Part shown: positions 1,223 to 50,543 of the stretch, piece by piece
Position numbering within the stretch: the first letter of the stretch is position 1
How the letters are laid out: each line of letters begins with the position of its first letter
DNA from: an uncultured Alphaproteobacteria bacterium
Lineage (GTDB): Bacteria; Pseudomonadota; Alphaproteobacteria; Rs-D84
Reading direction: 5' to 3'
Assembly: GCA_905233975.1 (NCBI GenBank)
Contig: CAJOGD010000004.1
Span: 124,001 to 188,000, forward strand
DNA: 64,000 nt
Notes under the pieces: generated by a model
Databases searched by the model: none
Seen by the model: only the letters and a program-made list of their open reading frames with translations
Told to the model about the DNA's origin: nothing
Program-made: the position numbers and the translations under genes

Positions 1223-4219
1223 ATGTCGAGAAAGGTTGCTAGTGTTTTGATGGGTGTTTCTTTGATGCAGGCCTTGGCGGTGGCGCCGTCGGTTGCAGAT
1301 ACGATAACCAGTGTTCAGGTTGTTCACGAAGGTCAAATGTTAAGTTTGTCGGACTTGGTTGCAAATTCATTTAATACCGATGCACCAAATGGTGGTGTTA
1401 TCTATAATGCGGGAACGGTGGTTATAAATGGAACATCACAGTTCAATAATAATACTGGGTCGGTGTTTGGTGGCGTTATTGCGAATGAAGAAACGGGAAC
1501 CCTTACCATAAGTAATGTTGGTTTCGGCGGTAACACCGGATCTGTGGGTGCCGCGTTGTATAATTTGGGTGATGCGAATTTCACAGGTGCCGCACTGTTT
1601 GGCAGTAATGTTGCAGAACAATCCGGTGGCGCAATATCAAACGCGGGCGATTTGGTGTTTGGTGGTAATGCGATATTTTCTTCGAACAGTGTGACGAACG
1701 GTGCCGGTGGTGCGATCGCCAATGATGTTGGTGGAACAATTACATTTATGGGGAACGCTGAATTCAGCGGAAACAGCGCAAGTGCCACAGATGTCACAGA
1801 TGGAATTGGTGGTGCGGTGCTGAATAACGGTGTGATAAAGTTTAATGGAAAAACGACCTTTGCCATGAATAAATCACAAAACAACGGAACCGCAATTCAT
1901 AATGGCGCAACAGGTGTGATGAATTTTAATGGTGGGTTAACTTTGTCTAACAATAATATTATTTCTGCGACCGGTGTTGCAACATCAACTGTTGATAACC
2001 AAGGAATAATCAGTGTTATTGGTGGCGATGTCATCGTTAATGGTAATACATCACACGTTGGCGGTGGCATAAACAGTTCTGCGTCGGATGCAAAATTATT
2101 GTTGGGTGCGTACTATGATGACGATGACAATGTTGTGGTATCCAAGATAAATAATATTATCTTTCAAAATAATACGGCACTGGACGGAACGGCGGGCGCT
2201 TTGTATGCCGGCGACGATACGGAATTATATGCGAAAAATATTTTGTTCAATAATAACGACAGCAATCTTGGTGGTCGTGGCGGCGCGATTGCATTACATG
2301 GTGGAACGCTAAAGATTATTGGCGACAGTAATACGTTTACCAATAATGATGCCAATGGCACGACGGACGTTGTTGAAAATCAATTCGAATTTGGTGGCGG
2401 CGCAATTCAGAATATGGGTAATGTCACGATTGGTGGCGTAAATAGTGTTAATAATTTTACTTCGAATACATCGGCGGGTTATGGTGGCGCAATACATGTT
2501 CGTGCGTCGGATGCGTCTGATATAGTGTCAACCATTTTGAATGGTGCGACGTCGTTCGCGTATAATCATGCGGCCCTGCATGGTGGCGCGATTAGTAATT
2601 ATGTCGATGCGGGCCAATCGACATTGACCTTTCATGGCGATACAGTTTTTACAAACAATACCAGTGATGGTTTGGGCGGCGCGATTTATAATACCGGTAC
2701 GTCGAATGGCGTTATTACGTTTGATGGTAATGCGACGTTTTCTGGAAATTCAGACGGCACCGGCGCCAATGATATTTACAATGATGGCACGATAAACTTT
2801 AATGGTAATGTCACGTTGGACGGTGGCATAACAGGTTCGGGAACGCTTGCCCTGGGGAATGGGAAAAGTTTGAACATTGGTAATGCAAGTCTTACGCAAA
2901 GTGTGGTTACAATGAACGGTGGGCGAATTGTTGCGCGACTTGGGAATGTGGCCGATGACTATCGTATCAATGTCGGTATGTTTAATGGCGACGGAATAAT
3001 TGCATTGACGTTGGCGGACGAAGGAACGTACCGGGTGTTTGGTAATTCTGTGTTCGGCGATACTGTGTTCGAAGGCGAAATAACTTTTGATAGTCCGCTT
3101 TATAATCTTATGTGGACGGACGAATTAAAATCTGTGACCGCGTCGCGCAAAACGCCGGATCAGATTGCGGCGAATAATGGCATATCAAATTTGGCGGCCG
3201 GCACAGTTTTGAATCTTATGAATTCTTCATCTGATGTTTTAAATGGTTTGGGTATGGCGGCCCAAGAACGGTTGGCGTTGGGTGATAAATTGTCTGTGGA
3301 AAATGCGGCGCGCGCAATATATCCGGAATTGGACCCTGTGATTCAATCGGTTAGTACGTCGGTGCAAACATCAATTGCGAATTTGGCGGCGGGGCGTATG
3401 GCTTTGTTGCAATCGTCCCTTGGGCGTAGTGGTGGCGACGCGGCCGCGCACAGTGGCGTTTGGGCCGAAGGTATGTATAACAAATCAAAACAAAATGACA
3501 TGTTTAACGGTTATACACGTGGCCTTGTGGCCGGTATGGATACACGTATTGCGCGCGGATTTATGCTGGGCGTGGGATATTCGTATTCGCATTCTGATGT
3601 GGCATCGATTGCGCGTGATATTGAAATCGACAGTAATACGATTTTTGTGTACGGACAATACAAGCCGGCCGCATGGTACGTGAATGCGATGGCGAATTAC
3701 ACTATGTCTGATTACGTGGAAAAATCTGATGCGCTGGGCATTGATGTCCGGTCGGATTTTGATGTCGATGCGATTGGTGCGGTGGTCACGACGGGATACG
3801 ATTTCGCCGCCGGCATTACTCCAGAGTTCGGGTTGCGCTATATGCATATCGGTGCGGAAGAATATAAAAATTCATTGGGTATAAAAAATAAATTGAAAGA
3901 TTCCGATTATCTGACCGCGATGGCGGGCGTCAAATACGCGTTTGATTTTCGCGTGTCGCGCGCGCTGACGTTGCGTCCAGAATTACGGTATGACGTAAAA
4001 TACGATATGTTGTCGGAAAAACATGCCGCGTCTGTTGTGATGCCCGGTGTGCCATCGTATGTGATGGTGGGTGATCGTTTGGCGCCATTCTCGATGGATT
4101 TTGGTGGTGGACTGGTTATGCGGTACCAAGATTTTAGTTTCGCATTTAACTATGATATCGAAGTTCGCGAAGATTATACATCACAAACTGGGCGTGTCCG
4201 CGCAAGAATGGTGTTTTAA
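1223..4219 (+). CDS. Autotransporter with Pmp-like GGAI/FxxN repeats
   Basis: A 998-residue type V secretion protein. Residues 1-25 form a signal peptide (MSRKVASVLMGVSLMQALA...SVAD). Roughly 40-620 is a Gly/Asn-rich passenger in which GGAI or GGAV alternates with FxGN/FxxN every 25-35 residues (for example GGAISNAGDLVFGG). This is the pattern of chlamydial polymorphic outer-membrane proteins and predicts a right-handed beta-helix. From about 725 to the end is an autotransporter beta-barrel (GVWAEGMYNKSKQND, GVGYSYSHSD) finishing in Phe (ARMVF), the usual signal for BAM-mediated insertion. The start is supported by AAAGGAA upstream. A surface adhesin role is inferred from the architecture. 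Length and domain order are complete; there is no sign of a frameshift. Confidence 0.93.
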   Translation: MSRKVASVLMGVSLMQALAVAPSVADTITSVQVVHEGQMLSLSDLVANSFNTDAPNGGVIYNAGTVVINGTSQFNNNTGSVFGGVIANEETGTLTISNVGFGGNTGSVGAALYNLGDANFTGAALFGSNVAEQSGGAISNAGDLVFGGNAIFSSNSVTNGAGGAIANDVGGTITFMGNAEFSGNSASATDVTDGIGGAVLNNGVIKFNGKTTFAMNKSQNNGTAIHNGATGVMNFNGGLTLSNNNIISATGVATSTVDNQGIISVIGGDVIVNGNTSHVGGGINSSASDAKLLLGAYYDDDDNVVVSKINNIIFQNNTALDGTAGALYAGDDTELYAKNILFNNNDSNLGGRGGAIALHGGTLKIIGDSNTFTNNDANGTTDVVENQFEFGGGAIQNMGNVTIGGVNSVNNFTSNTSAGYGGAIHVRASDASDIVSTILNGATSFAYNHAALHGGAISNYVDAGQSTLTFHGDTVFTNNTSDGLGGAIYNTGTSNGVITFDGNATFSGNSDGTGANDIYNDGTINFNGNVTLDGGITGSGTLALGNGKSLNIGNASLTQSVVTMNGGRIVARLGNVADDYRINVGMFNGDGIIALTLADEGTYRVFGNSVFGDTVFEGEITFDSPLYNLMWTDELKSVTASRKTPDQIAANNGISNLAAGTVLNLMNSSSDVLNGLGMAAQERLALGDKLSVENAARAIYPELDPVIQSVSTSVQTSIANLAAGRMALLQSSLGRSGGDAAAHSGVWAEGMYNKSKQNDMFNGYTRGLVAGMDTRIARGFMLGVGYSYSHSDVASIARDIEIDSNTIFVYGQYKPAAWYVNAMANYTMSDYVEKSDALGIDVRSDFDVDAIGAVVTTGYDFAAGITPEFGLRYMHIGAEEYKNSLGIKNKLKDSDYLTAMAGVKYAFDFRVSRALTLRPELRYDVKYDMLSEKHAASVVMPGVPSYVMVGDRLAPFSMDFGGGLVMRYQDFSFAFNYDIEVREDYTSQTGRVRARMVF

Positions 4220-4238: not shown

Positions 4239-4268
4239 TTGACCCGATTTTATAAAATGTGATACCAT
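4239..4268 (+). promoter_or_regulatory. Promoter of leader A
   Basis: TTGACC, an 18-bp spacer and TACCAT. The promoters of the paralogous genes B and C also have 18-bp spacers, and the transcribed sequence is homologous to leader B from the expected start point onward. Confidence 0.65.
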
Positions 4269-4274
4269 AAAACC

Positions 4275-4492
4275 GAATCAGAAGGGATTCTGAGTTCCGG
4301 GCTGTCGTAAGCCCGCCGGCAATCGGCACATTATGTCGTAATCCACAAAATTTCCGATATTTTGTGCCGTTATTTTGGCATACCCCAATTGTCGGGGTGC
4401 CTATGGAGTATATTTGAAGTCCATGGGAATCATGATTGCTGGTGGTTTACGAACACCCCGACCGTCTCTGTCTGATGACGGCGTTCGTTTTT
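4275..4492 (+). ncRNA. Structured leader RNA of gene A (candidate attenuator)
   Basis: About 220 nt of the 5' leader of gene 4525 is homologous to the leader of gene 15913. Visible helices: CAGAA/TTCTG (leader B has CAGAT/ATCTG, a compensatory change); GGGCT/AGCCC; a 51-nt block identical to leader B in which CGGCACA can pair with TGTGCCG or, alternatively, ACAAAAT with ATTTTGT; and a choice of partner for GTCGGGGTG (4391-4399), which can pair with ACCCC just upstream or with CACCCCGAC (4454-4462) downstream. A small hairpin, TATGGA/TCCATG, lies inside the longer loop. CCGTC/GACGG (4462-4481) followed by CGTTCGTTTTT looks like an intrinsic terminator. I do not recognise an Rfam class. The structure is read by eye; regulation is inferred. 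Confidence 0.6.
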
Positions 4493-6365: not shown

Positions 6366-7466
6366 TTATGCGGCTTTTTTGATTCCAGATTTTATGTTGC
6401 GGACGTATTTGCGTAATTCGTCGATTGATACATGTGTCCCGTCGCGCTTTTCCGCAGACCAGTAATCCCAACCGTTGAAACTTTGGCAATGTTGAATGCG
6501 CGCCGCCATGACGTGAATGGACGCCTTGCCATATAAACTGTGCACCAGGTTCCCGTCGTTCGCAATCATGACGCGTTCGCCGCGCGGGCTGACCAATGTT
6601 TGGCCGACATAAAGCAATCCGCCGTCGATAAGTTCGCGGAATGCAACGCGGATTTCGTCGCGTTTGGGTTTCGAAACTTCGATATCCGAAAGGTCAATTG
6701 GTGTTGTGTTTGCAACGCGTTCGCGCGCCGCCATGACGTATGATTCTTCGCGTTCTATGCCGATGAATTTCCGCCCCAATTCGCGCGCGGCGGCGGCGGT
6801 TGTGCCCGAACCCATAAATGGGTCCAATATTACGTCGCCTTGTTTGGTCGATGCCAATATTACGCGACGCAGTAAATCCATTGGTTTTTGCGTGTTGTGC
6901 AAACTTTTGCCGGTTTCGTCTTTTAATCTTTCTTCGCCAAGGCAAATGTTCATGTCCCAATCGGAACGCATTTGTTTGCCACCGTTTAATTTCTTCATCG
7001 TTTCATAGTTGAATGTATATTTGCCCGTTTTCGTCGGCGTTGCCCAAATCAATGTTTCATGCGCGTTTGTGAACCGCGTGCCACGAAAGTTCGGCATAGG
7101 ATTCGTTTTGACCCACACGACATCATTTAAAATCCAAAAGCCCAGTTCTTGCATAATTGCGCCGACCTGGAAAATATTATGATACGAACCGATTGTCCAC
7201 ATCGCGCCGTCGGGACGTAGAACGCGACGACATTCGGACATCCATGCGCGCGTGAATTTATTATATTCTTCGGGCGATTCAAACGCGTCCCACGTGTCGC
7301 GTACCGCACGCGCGGCCGTTTGATCTTCGGGCCGATAAAGCGTTTTTTGCCCAAGTTGTAAATTATATGGTGGATCCGCAAATACCGCATCAATCGAACC
7401 ATCGGGAATTCCGCGCATCAGTTCTATGCAATCGCCGATTAAGATTTGGTTCAGGTATTTGTCCAT
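6366..7466 (-). CDS. ccrM: Cell-cycle regulated adenine-N6 DNA methyltransferase CcrM (GANTC)
   Basis: 366 residues, close to the usual CcrM length. It transfers a methyl group from S-adenosylmethionine to the adenine of GANTC and in alphaproteobacteria is a cell-cycle regulator. The beta-class motif order is visible: catalytic DPPY with DAVFADPPYNLQLG near residue 30, IGSYHNIF, LGFWILNDVVWVKTNPMPNFRG, HNTQKP and the SAM-binding DPFMGSGTTAAAA. The last 80 residues (ELIDGGLLYVGQTL, then FNGWDYW) form the RAMA-type C-terminal domain typical of CcrM and absent from plain restriction methylases. No restriction enzyme gene lies nearby, which fits an orphan regulatory enzyme. It is alone between a repeat region and the divergent nrdR gene. 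Confidence 0.95.
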   Translation of the reverse strand: MDKYLNQILIGDCIELMRGIPDGSIDAVFADPPYNLQLGQKTLYRPEDQTAARAVRDTWDAFESPEEYNKFTRAWMSECRRVLRPDGAMWTIGSYHNIFQVGAIMQELGFWILNDVVWVKTNPMPNFRGTRFTNAHETLIWATPTKTGKYTFNYETMKKLNGGKQMRSDWDMNICLGEERLKDETGKSLHNTQKPMDLLRRVILASTKQGDVILDPFMGSGTTAAAARELGRKFIGIEREESYVMAARERVANTTPIDLSDIEVSKPKRDEIRVAFRELIDGGLLYVGQTLVSPRGERVMIANDGNLVHSLYGKASIHVMAARIQHCQSFNGWDYWSAEKRDGTHVSIDELRKYVRNIKSGIKKAA

Positions 7467-15913: not shown

Positions 15914-15937
15914 ATCGCTCTCCTTTTCTTTTTTTCC

Positions 15938-16075
15938 ACGTCATACCGCCGAAAGGCGGTATCTCCTCAGGCTTTCCTGAGAATTAACTCTCTGCCGGTC
16001 CGACGGGATTCCGGTTCCTGTCTCGCCGTAGCCTTGGCGTAGGCGGATTCGCCGGAATGACGGCTTTCTATCCGT
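15938..16075. repeat. REP-like repeat within leader of gene B
   Basis: Palindrome ATACCGCCGAAAGGCGGTAT, then CTCAGGCTTTCCTGAG, then CCGGAAT...ATTCCGG interrupted by a CGCCGTAGCC...GGCGGA insert. The same block without the insert lies at 50188..50282, in the same position before gene C. Confidence 0.8.
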
Positions 16076-16094
16076 CTTCGCTATTGCTCCGTCG

Positions 16095-16343
16095 CGGTTC
16101 GTTTATTTGCGCACAAATAAACGAAAAACACCGCATGCGAATTTACGGTATCGGGGTGTTAGAACATCATACAAAGTAATGATCCCCATGGACTTCCTAT
16201 ATACTCCATAGGCACCCCGAAGAAACGGGGTATGTCAGGATAACGGCACAAAATATCGGAAATTTTGTGGATTACGACATAATGTGCCGACTTTGTACAA
16301 GGCGTTCTACTGCCCCGAACCAGATTCCCATCTGATTCGGTTT
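16095..16343 (-). ncRNA. Structured leader RNA of gene B (candidate attenuator)
   Basis: This is homologous to leader A on the opposite strand. Read 5' to 3' on the minus strand: first hairpin CAGAT-GGGA-ATCTG; the 51-nt block identical to leader A (plus positions 16240-16290); CCCCG with CGGGG, where TCGGGGTG (16213-16220) can instead pair with CACCCCGA (16151-16158); an internal TATGGA/TCCATG hairpin with loop GTATATAGGAAG; ATCAT/ATGAT; then ACCGTA/TGCGGT followed by GTTTTTCG, a terminator-like hairpin; then a 12-bp perfect hairpin TTCGTTTATTTG/CAAATAAACGAA at 16098-16125. Base changes relative to leader A preserve pairing in the first hairpin. The biochemical role is unknown. Confidence 0.6.
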
Positions 16344-16344
16344 T

Positions 16345-16374
16345 ATTCTATCAAAATTTGATGATTTCGGTCAA
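16345..16374 (-). promoter_or_regulatory. Promoter of leader B
   Basis: On the minus strand TTGACC, 18-bp spacer, TAGAAT. The transcript would carry about 430 nt of leader before the ATG at 15913. Confidence 0.75.
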
Positions 16375-44967: not shown

Positions 44968-45591
44968 ATGCGCTTTGGAAAATTAATTATGTTGGGTTTA
45001 AGTTTGGTTGTCGTTGGAACGGCATTCGCAGAAGGTGAGGCGCCGACCGATGCAGAAAGACGAAAAACCGTTACATCAAAGTGGTATGTTGATCAGAAAG
45101 TTGGTGAAAAGCAGGAAGCACTTAGCGGTACGGCCGGCAGTATCGCCGTTTATACCGGCACAGAGGGTTCTTTGACAGAAATAGCGGTATCTGGGCATAT
45201 CGTGGCAACGGGCAGCGAAGTTCAAGACACAATTGATGACTTTTTGCCAACGGTTGGTGCGGTGAATGCCGAATTGAATTTAAGACAAGATAAATTGGGC
45301 GCGGGCAAGACCGCGGGTTATGTTGCGACATATACGTCAACTGATGGTTCCTTGGATCAAAAGGCGGTGTATAATACCTCGAACGCATATGATAGTACGA
45401 ATCAGGCCGCACTGATAGAGGCCGCACATGCGAATTCCGCAATTCAAACAGGATTGGATCGGCATTTGACATGCGATGAGACCAACCAAGGGCCGGGTAA
45501 TACATGCTGGCTGTGGACGGTGAATGATCAGCAGACGACAGATATTTATACAGATTATGGCACCGCTGCTAATTCTAATACTACTAACTAA
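44968..45591 (+). CDS. Secreted protein, short distant member D of the variable-module family
   Basis: 207 residues. Signal peptide MRFGKLIMLGLSLVVVGTAFA. It follows the family plan at low identity: RRKTVTSKWYVDQKV (compare DRKTATSLKYV), LPTVGAVNAELNLRQDKLG (compare LPMVGGVNTKL.QKQDDI), GYVATYTSTDGS (compare AVTYTGQ), NSAIQTGLDRHLTCDE...NTCWLWTVND (compare AALKNGLDSEF.C...LCWLYTIHN). It stops about 20 residues after the CW motif, just where A, B and C enter their variable modules, and lacks the VYxPQxQ tail. GGGAGGAAAAAAT is a strong ribosome-binding site. Own promoter and terminator. Function unknown. Confidence 0.82.
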   Translation: MRFGKLIMLGLSLVVVGTAFAEGEAPTDAERRKTVTSKWYVDQKVGEKQEALSGTAGSIAVYTGTEGSLTEIAVSGHIVATGSEVQDTIDDFLPTVGAVNAELNLRQDKLGAGKTAGYVATYTSTDGSLDQKAVYNTSNAYDSTNQAALIEAAHANSAIQTGLDRHLTCDETNQGPGNTCWLWTVNDQQTTDIYTDYGTAANSNTTN

Positions 45592-48992: not shown

Positions 48993-50162
48993 TTATTGCC
49001 CCTGGGGAATATAGACATTCAATTCCGGGCCGGCGATAAAGTTTGTACCACTTACCGCGCTTGGGAAGAATCTTTGTCTGACAGTGTCGTACATGCCAAC
49101 AGTTGTGCCATGTTGCGCGGGTATAAGTTTGGCCTCAAGCGTTCCGTTTGTGCGTATTTCTACACCGTAACACCGACCTTGGAATTGCGCTGTGCTTGTG
49201 ACACCACCTGTTTTTGCATAATTTGTAAATAATAGTAGACTTCTATCCGATTGAAACGGTGTCCATAAGGACCTGTCTAGTGTGAATATTTGTTGATTGT
49301 CTATAAATACATCCCCAGATATATATCTTACTGTGTGTCGGGTTAGGTATTGTGCTTGGGTAAGTGATGTAAGTGCGCCGTATTCTAGTTCGTTTGTATC
49401 GTCAAACTGTAGCCATATTTTGTTTGAGCTTGATGATATAAATTGCAGAGAGTATTTGTGATATGGGGTGCCTGATGAATTGTAGTCGCGTGACCCAAAC
49501 AGCCATTTAAGACCAGATATATTAGATTGAAAATCTATAACAGTGTCAGTTAAGTTGGAAACTTTTATTCCCGTATCAATATACTGTGTCCCGTCGGATT
49601 CAATCCACTCTAATGCCGTATATTCGGCCGGGGAAACATTACCGACGTTATTATGTATCGAATAGACCCAACAAATGTCGGTTCCGGGTTTAGTTTCCGC
49701 ACATCTGAATTCATTATCAAGTCCGGTTTTAAGTGCGGCGTTAAAAGTTTTTGCATCGATTAAATTATCCGATTGTTCCGCGAACGATTCGGTTGCCTGA
49801 TAAATTCCTTTTTGCCCGATTTCGCCCGATTCCCCGGTATATGTGACCGCGGTATGGTCGTTAACCGGGCCGATGTCGTCCTGTTTTGTATTAAGTTTCG
49901 TATTCACGCCGCCAACCATGGGCAACGAATCGGTCCCACCGTTATCCAGGTCCGATGTGACGGCACGTTTTTCCACCACGCCGGCCGAATTGGTGTATTC
50001 CATGGCTTTGTTTGCTTCGGCACCAAACTTATCCTGACGCGTATCAAGTTCGTGTGTGACATACTTTAACGATGTCGCAGTTTTGCGGTCCGCGGCTTCT
50101 TCGGCCACCGCCGGCAACACCGCCGCAATCAGTCCAAACAACAAAAACTTTTTCAAAAACAT
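48993..50162 (-). CDS. Secreted variable-module protein, member C (LamG-like C-terminus)
   Basis: 389 residues. Signal peptide MFLKKFLLFGLIAAVLPAVA. The family module to about residue 170 is nearly identical to A and B (AADRKTATSLKYV, SLPMVGGVNTKL, DHTAVTYTGESG, DNLIDAKTFNAALK, DICWVYSIHN). Residues about 178-380 are a LamG-like module related to that of A only in outline: EYTALEWIESDGTQYIDTGIKV and VGMYDTVRQRFFPSAVSGTNF frame a different centre (FGSRDYNSSGTPYHK). The tail is VYIPQGQ. GGAGAGTCAG precedes the ATG. The leader differs in sequence from those of A and B but has the same logic. The 92-bp repeat lies just downstream, as for B. Confidence 0.85.
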   Translation of the reverse strand: MFLKKFLLFGLIAAVLPAVAEEAADRKTATSLKYVTHELDTRQDKFGAEANKAMEYTNSAGVVEKRAVTSDLDNGGTDSLPMVGGVNTKLNTKQDDIGPVNDHTAVTYTGESGEIGQKGIYQATESFAEQSDNLIDAKTFNAALKTGLDNEFRCAETKPGTDICWVYSIHNNVGNVSPAEYTALEWIESDGTQYIDTGIKVSNLTDTVIDFQSNISGLKWLFGSRDYNSSGTPYHKYSLQFISSSSNKIWLQFDDTNELEYGALTSLTQAQYLTRHTVRYISGDVFIDNQQIFTLDRSLWTPFQSDRSLLLFTNYAKTGGVTSTAQFQGRCYGVEIRTNGTLEAKLIPAQHGTTVGMYDTVRQRFFPSAVSGTNFIAGPELNVYIPQGQ

Positions 50163-50294: not shown

Positions 50295-50510
50295 CTTTTA
50301 TCTGCATACAAATAAATGAACCACCGAAACGCTTCTAGTGGTTGGAGGTTAGATACAATTTGACGAAATTGTGTGCTTATTTTGATGGGCCCGGGGGCCT
50401 TACATTATTCACATCCCTCCAACCTATTTGGTTGGAGTTTTCGCCGAATACATAATTCGACATCGTCAAACGGGTATCTACACCCCATCGATGGAACACC
50501 CATCGACACG
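50295..50510 (-). ncRNA. Structured leader RNA of gene C (candidate attenuator)
   Basis: Read 5' to 3' on the minus strand: hairpin CGATGG-GTGTT-CCATCG; then CTCCAACC (C arm, 50430-50437), GGTTGGAGG (B arm, 50416-50424), hairpin ACAATTT-CGTC-AAATTGT (50355-50372), and CCTCCAACC (A arm, 50340-50348). B can pair fully with either C or A. The A arm shares AACC with AACCAC/GTGGTT (50319-50343), a hairpin followed by CATTTATTTG, so A:B pairing would prevent that hairpin. A last hairpin corresponds to the 12-bp stem of leader B (TTTATTTG...). The sequence differs from leaders A and B; the arrangement is analogous. Confidence 0.55.
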
Positions 50511-50513
50511 AAT

Positions 50514-50543
50514 ATTCTAACAGAAACCGTCAAATTTAGTCAA
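50514..50543 (-). promoter_or_regulatory. Promoter of leader C
   Basis: Minus-strand TTGACT, 18-bp spacer, TAGAAT; about 350 nt before the ATG at 50162. Confidence 0.75.

Follow-up and report, generated by a model that had tools for sequence, protein, structure and literature searches.

The leader in front of a secreted-protein gene in the window (the whole stretch of 64,000 nucleotides analyzed here, from an uncultured alphaproteobacterium) is probably an antisense scaffold of the C4/sRNA-Xcc1 type, used as a transcription attenuator of that gene; this reading is drawn from sequence comparison. An earlier note on this DNA had described two leaders, A and B, as alignable over about 220 nt between unrelated flanks, and both were recovered in this form (A, 4239–4492, forward strand; B, 16374–16122, reverse strand), with a shared identical block of exactly 51 nt. 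Hairpin 1 retains its pairing through a double change, from CAGAA-GGGA-TTCTG in A to CAGAT-GGGA-ATCTG in B. In leader A, GTCGGGGTG can indeed pair with two partners, ACCCC upstream or CACCCCGAC downstream, and the pairing strands are followed by the terminator-like hairpin and a T-rich tract, which is interrupted (CGTTCGTTTTT). The matching promoters (TTGAC...TGATA) were found ahead of the 20 copies aligned first. The folding energy of leader A was −100.3 kcal/mol, compared with −65.8 ± 4.6 kcal/mol for shuffled sequences (z = −7.6), indicating that its structure is beyond chance. Leaders A and B are real folded RNAs, and their structure is strongly supported. The genome contains 55 leaders rather than two, and a1, b1, the H6 hairpin with the b′ loop and both pseudoknots are additions to the earlier description (Table 1).

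Table 1. Positions of the leaders, their structural elements and the genes behind leaders A and B in the window.
Feature	Position	Strand	Remarks
Leader A promoter	−35 (TTGACC) 4239–4244; −10 region (GATACCAT) 4261–4268	+	Predicted; position conserved in aligned copies
Leader A H1 hairpin, GGGA tetraloop	4279–4292	+	Compensatory A-T/T-A change relative to B
Leader A H2 hairpin	4299–4314	+	Loop 4305–4310 (TCGTAA) is the a1 site
Leader A b1 site (H2–H3 linker)	4315–4323	+	Pairs with H6 loop b′
Leader A H3 stem-loop	4324–4369	+	Inside the 51-nt block identical to B; ATTTCCGATATT common to phage P1 c4 leader
Leader A strand a (5′ strand of H4)	4382–4388	+	Alternative partner of b
Leader A strand b	4391–4399	+	Pairs with a (H4) or c (P1 stem of C4-like core)
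Leader A C4/sRNA-Xcc1-like core (b, H5 = P2, H6 = P3 with b′ loop, a′, c)	4391–4462	+	RF02221 over full length, weak: 16.8 bits, E 2.8
Leader A H5 (= P2) hairpin	4400–4427	+	Covariation
Leader A H6 (= P3) hairpin	4429–4446	+	Loop segment 4435–4445 is b′
Leader A a′ (TTACGA)	4447–4452	+	Partner of a1
Leader A strand c (3′ strand of b:c)	4454–4462	+	Overlaps terminator base
Leader A predicted terminator	Hairpin 4462–4481; T-rich tract 4482–4492	+	
Secreted-protein gene behind leader A, 501 aa	4525–6030	+	Member of 55-copy family; no Pfam or PHROG match
Leader B, whole	16122–16374	−	−35 16374–16368; −10 16352–16345
Leader B, 5′ half	H1 16334–16321; H2 16315–16301 (a1 16309–16304); b1 16300–16290; H3 16289–16244	−	
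Leader B, 3′ half	a 16231–16226; b 16220–16213; H5 16212–16185; b′ 16177–16167; a′ 16165–16160; c 16158–16151	−	
Leader B predicted terminator	Hairpin 16149–16130; T tract 16129–16122	−	
Leader B gene, 373 aa	14792–15913	−	Paralogue of the 4525 protein
Third window leader, type 2	About 50305–50543 (3′ end approximate); −35 at 50543	−	c, CCTCCAACC; b, GGTTGGAGG

In the genome, which comprises 1.04 Mb in 11 contigs, a DNA search with leader A detected about 20 clear copies; with a covariance model, we obtained 38 strong type-1 matches. Reading upstream of every gene of the family, we found a leader ahead of all 55 close paralogues (35 of type 1 and 20 of type 2 or 3) and none ahead of four divergent paralogues. 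One of these divergent paralogues is located in the window (44980–45480, forward strand; 35% identity to the N-terminal query), and the other three lie elsewhere in the genome. The third leader in the window is upstream of a paralogue at about 49695–50162. The proteins of the family have a signal peptide, a conserved 157-aa N-terminus and variable C-termini; the N-termini of the 55 paralogues are 74–100% identical. The family had no match in Pfam or PHROG, and a contig scan with the N-terminus detected one relative only, alphaproteobacterial and from yak rumen.

The fold was analyzed in two alignments. The first (A2) consisted of the 19 type-1 copies of the genome itself and was tested for H2, the b1:b′ helix, H3, H4 (a:b), H5 and the a1:a′ pseudoknot. 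In A2, 97.3% of the cells were paired, compared with 34–44% when the partner strand was slid by 1–3 nt; 19 pairs changed on both sides (covariation score 0.489, vs. 0.190 in shuffled alignments), and double changes were present in 129 cells (vs. 40.8 shuffled). The second (A3) consisted of 70 homologues from other genomes, fitted to the covariance model, in which 96.0% of the cells of the stored structure were paired and 30 of the 33 pairs showed double changes (score 0.640 vs. 0.214). This strong covariation across many species bears out the proposal that the leader is a structured, cis-acting RNA that can fold in alternative ways and includes a terminator. Because A3 was fitted to a model that does not include the a1:a′ pseudoknot, this pairing, between the H2 loop and the strand 5′ of c, provides the cleaner test of covariation. 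It was formed in 410 of 417 cells in A3, with four or five pair types at the central positions, in all 114 cells in A2 and in all 54 analyzed copies of the genome; overall, this first pseudoknot is 98–100% paired and covaries. The second pseudoknot, which joins the H2–H3 linker (b1) to the H6 loop (b′), covaries as well: 8 of its 9 pairs changed on both sides in A2, the columns fitted to the model were 100% paired in A3, and runs of at least 7 were present in 53 of the 54 copies. Double changes in H5 affected 5 of 8 pairs in A2 and all 8 in A3. The H6 stem, as read from the sequences, is AUCAU/AUGAU in type 1 and ACAAUU/AAUUGU in type 2. A closing helix, GGTT/GACC (P0), was also considered and was rejected; it is good in type 1, but by inspection is lost in type 2 and in distant families.

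The competing helices were surveyed in 125 leader copies. The b:c helix was contiguous over 7–13 bp in 123 copies, and a predicted intrinsic terminator was located 3′ of c in 121, of which 113 showed an overlap of at least 1 nt between c and the terminator stem, most commonly 3–5 nt. This overlap is near nil in leader B (2 nt) and in copy C4_213592 (0 nt), and the terminators of a few copies (C3_7323, C7_65212 and C5_54700) are weak or unclear. The b:c helix covaries, with an A-U to U-A swap at its second pair across families (alignment positions 286–443), and its two strands change together between leader types (GGTTGGGG/CCCCGACC, GGTTGGAG/CTCCAACC and GGCCAGGA/TCCTGGCC). Predicted duplex energies were mostly −15 to −25 kcal/mol for b:c, mostly −9 to −20 kcal/mol for a:b and about −6 to −17 kcal/mol for the terminator, and b:c was predicted to be stronger than a:b in most copies. 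Conservation is lower for the a:b hairpin than for b:c (in A3, one position of a:b is unpaired in 29 of 68 cells), and therefore a:b may not serve as the OFF fold in every leader. Elsewhere, in the genomes compared, c is mostly separated from the start codon by about 35–60 nt, a stretch taken up by the terminator and the ribosome-binding site, so that a further promoter would not fit. On sequence evidence, this is the layout of an attenuator: the predicted terminator separates the promoter from the gene, and a rival pairing would open the terminator base. The covariation of b:c, the overlap with the terminator and the lack of space for a second promoter make a cis-acting transcription attenuator the simplest reading. 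In larger alphaproteobacterial genomes (loci L203, L205, L207 and L216–L221), a conserved hairpin with GCGGGGGCGYACCGC replaces the terminator downstream of c; pairing between the loop of this hairpin and the H1 loop (TACGCG) is conceivable, and the hairpin may be a third output device.

The earlier note had recognized no Rfam family and put the leader forward as a candidate new structured RNA. The first part stands for the window, in which no family reached the gathering threshold and only weak sub-threshold matches were listed up to E 10; RF02221 (sRNA-Xcc1), at leader A, had the highest bit score among them. Across the genome, no RF02221 match reached significance (the gathering cut-off is 53 bits). 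Among the 96 genomes examined from the same genus, 53 matched RF02221 at E ≤ 0.01, two passed the gathering threshold (57.8 and 55.5 bits), and several of the matched places are loci that were also matched by our models R1 or R2. One of the loci passing the threshold, L257, has a1 TGATAA, a′ TTATCA, the b:c strands GGTCGGGGTG/CACCCCGACC and a terminator; because it shares the a1/a′, b:c and terminator layout, it belongs to the leader type of the window. The proposal of an unrelated new class was therefore not upheld: relatives in the genus pass RF02221 and the window copies do not. In distant Alphaproteobacteria, RF02221 recurs below threshold, over its full length and exactly over b-H5-H6-a′-c. 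Conversely, R2 recovered a few of the genuine RF02221 loci (3 of 26, at E ≤ 0.001) and covered the 5′ halves of these as well; genuine RF02221 loci from other Pseudomonadota carry the a1 hairpin and b1 upstream, Rfam covering the 3′ half only. The window leaders possess the structure of that family, namely, the closing stem b:c, P2 (H5), P3 (H6) and a single-stranded a′ before the 3′ strand. The likeness thus extends over the full-length core, b-H5-H6 (b′ loop)-a′-c, and over the a1 hairpin and b1 upstream of it. In contrast, a second copy of the sites, a2/b2, is often present around the ribosome-binding site in RF02221 members from other groups, which have no evident terminator, whereas the window leaders have the terminator and lack a2/b2. 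sRNA-Xcc1 is a Xanthomonas integron RNA found upstream of symE (PMC2996969, PMC12444791); cloning and mapping gave its length as 88 nt (PMC2996969). When compared with plasmids by BLAST, the RF02221 consensus had six partial matches, none with annotation.

The same architecture is found in the C4 antisense RNA, which controls immunity in phages such as P1 and P7 (RF01695; the c4-a1b1 motif of Weinberg et al. 2010, PMC2864571); it has the order a1, b1, P1, P2, P3 (b′), a′ in common with the window leaders. The phage P1 record annotates a1, b1, C4 RNA, a2, b2 and icd in this order, and the P1 c4 leader shares ATTTCCGATATT and a CGG..CCG outer stem with the H3 region of the window leaders. As in C4, the upstream a1 and b1 are complementary to a′ and b′ of the core. 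The best match of R2 in a chosen 801-nt stretch of P1 was the c4 site, although weak (11.5 bits, E 0.002); R1 did not match the c4 region of P1 to any meaningful extent. RF01695 itself had no match at E ≤ 10 in the window and none in the 96 genomes of the genus (control genomes likewise had none), so the leaders are not assigned to RF01695, and the kinship is supported through RF02221 and the architecture. C4 controls an antirepressor operon and has a2/b2 at the gene start, whereas the window leaders precede chromosomal surface genes and end in a terminator. Near the start codons of the genome itself, the longest runs complementary to a′ and b′ equaled those in shuffled sequences (4.26 vs. 4.04; 4.15 vs. 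4.16; n = 54), and a2/b2 is also missing in most alphaproteobacterial homologues; 68% of the RF02221 loci have downstream a2/b2 runs of at least 6. PMC5320573 reports processing of C4 antisense RNA by RNase P and describes occlusion of the ribosome-binding site. In phage P4, the CI RNA that provides immunity is an antisense RNA released from a leader by processing; by pairing with complementary sites on either side of itself, it brings about transcription termination (PMC4825925). As described there, it resembles the window leaders in its output by termination, but the latter have an intrinsic terminator and upstream sites only. For Acinetobacter baumannii, a member of another bacterial class, the available text of PMC5320573 describes Group 1 C4-like sRNAs, many per genome, which vary chiefly in the a′ loop and have been proposed to be co-opted for host genes; a one-to-one link to surface genes and an attenuator terminator are not among the features described in that text. 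Judged by sequence and architecture, the window leaders are divergent relatives of sRNA-Xcc1 and of the P1/P7 C4 antisense RNA, and not an unknown class. A literature search for a prior description of the leader found none; what appears to be new, from the sequences compared, is the terminator output in place of a2/b2, the host range and the scale.

The covariance model matched 129 of 142 genomes of the family and 169 of 201 of the order, and the broader model R2 matched 37 of 386 genomes of the class, spread over about two dozen families and including genomes of 3–6 Mb. Outside the genus, the downstream genes encode outer-membrane barrels, an autotransporter, a PEGA protein, GT2/GT8, RgpF, FkbM and pyruvyl transferases, GmrSD, an SNF2/ResIII helicase, DUF4268 and HTH_3; a DNA methylase is downstream in a species of the same genus. 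No metabolite or pathway was common to these surface and defense genes. A pattern search of viral contigs detected two contigs for the CTCCCCGACCG form and none for the CACCCCGACCG form. Two viral-labeled IMG/VR contigs (L188 and L189) carry the RNA, L188 together with terminase-like genes and L189 with an apparent reverse transcriptase just upstream.

We considered whether the leader could instead be a ligand-sensing riboswitch unrelated to antisense RNAs, with a pseudoknotted aptamer and a:b versus b:c as its expression platform. The large conserved fold, the conserved unpaired letters, the pseudoknots and the terminator platform would suit this explanation, as would the many paralogous genes under a single class; some known riboswitches likewise serve many paralogous genes. 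However, a1/b1 and a′/b′ vary almost freely while their pairing is kept, as expected of antisense addresses, homologues that pass RF02221 show the a1-b1-a′-b′-a2-b2 layout, the downstream genes do not share a metabolite pathway, and no riboswitch class of Rfam reached the gathering threshold, with weak sub-threshold matches only. We thus regard a riboswitch as rather unlikely. A purely trans-acting small RNA gene, whose position ahead of surface genes would be a by-product of gene duplication, is in our judgment quite unlikely: sRNA-Xcc1 was mapped as a discrete 88-nt RNA (PMC2996969), the terminator closes the unit in nearly all copies and in one case (L192) no family gene follows the leader, but in unrelated families the RNA lies just before the start codons of very different genes, and the short-spaced copies leave no room for a promoter, so that their genes need read-through. 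It is very improbable that the leader is a passive recombination or stability element of a duplicating surface-gene family, because, although the 55 paralogues with their near-constant N-termini, variable C-termini and contig ends inside them suggest ongoing recombination, conserved alternative pairings overlap the terminator and the same RNA stands before unrelated genes in other families.

Under the favored reading of an antisense scaffold used as an attenuator, the transcript would begin at the predicted promoter just upstream of H1. As sequence and covariation show, H2 exposes a1, followed by b1, and the C4-like core comes next, consisting of stem b:c, H5, H6 with the b′ loop, and a′; a1 pairs with a′ and b1 with b′, and b can alternatively pair with a. 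Once the core is folded and docked, b:c would open the terminator at its base, allowing RNA polymerase to read into the gene; a′, which is one nucleotide from c, could stack on b:c. We infer this direction of control, with the docked fold as the ON state, and likewise the role of the protein family. When b is paired with a, or docking is prevented, the terminator would form and a short C4-like RNA would be released. By analogy with phages P1 and P4, the terminated core, or a core processed perhaps by RNase P, may bind a1/b1 of another transcript with the same leader in trans and turn the gene off; with trans pairing of this kind, each leader would feed back on its gene through an address of its own. 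For promoter use, termination, processing and read-through alike, we rely on prediction from sequence.

No (a,b) address recurs among the 54 analyzed leaders, whose a parts are of 18 kinds. Among ordered pairs with b-part cross-pairing runs of at least 9, compatible a parts were present in 0 of 25 (4.1 expected, P about 0.02), and among those with runs of at least 7, in 5 of 92 (11.9 expected, P about 0.02). The test was uncorrected and devised after the data had been seen, its thresholds depend on one another and hand assignment was used for a few a1/b1 sites; therefore, the result is a lead only. The avoidance of shared compatible a parts is the opposite of what simple duplication would be expected to produce, and the pattern would fit selection against cross-talk between trans-acting cores. 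We tentatively raise the possibility, itself doubtful, that about 55 mutually insulated antisense RNAs of the phage-immunity type, each with a two-part address, switch the surface-protein genes individually. If this were true, the insulated array would be an RNA-based system for variable surface expression, and addresses acting in trans would make the leaders about 55 naturally occurring RNA switches, orthogonal to one another. The kinship joins a gut-bacterial leader, Xanthomonas sRNA-Xcc1 and the P1/P7 C4 RNA as one RNA superfamily, with an architecture fuller than that in Rfam, in which one scaffold has two output devices, pairing at the ribosome site (a2/b2) or an intrinsic terminator. It also suggests a large-scale domestication of a phage immunity RNA in genome-reduced Alphaproteobacteria for the control of secreted and surface proteins, and in other families the domesticated RNA may control glycosyltransferases and defense genes.

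Several further observations were made in the genome (G000). Contig ends often fall within the secreted paralogues, and these breaks, together with the constant N-termini and variable C-termini, hint at recombination and assembly breaks. Variable inserts lie between terminator and gene at 15914–16121 in the window and in similar stretches behind many leaders; they consist of recurrent short palindromic repeats (GTCATTCCGGCG..., AATTCTCAGGAAAGCCTGAGGAGAT...) that look like small mobile intergenic repeats, judging from their sequences, and are absent where the spacing is short, as in leader A. The gene immediately 5′ of leader A (1223–4219, forward strand) encodes an autotransporter with a Pfam match to Chlamydia PMP-type repeats, and the product of 6366–7466 (reverse strand) resembles a CcrM-type adenine DNA methyltransferase by sequence. 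The copy without a family gene (L192; G000:C4:248465-248635, reverse strand) is an intact type-1 leader with promoter and terminator that faces the end of an opposite-strand gene, either as a remnant or as a free-standing RNA. A variant leader (L190; G000:C1:79731-79901, forward strand), with b GTTGGGGGAG and c CTCCCCCAAC, precedes a gene resembling a Stealth-type capsule phosphotransferase.
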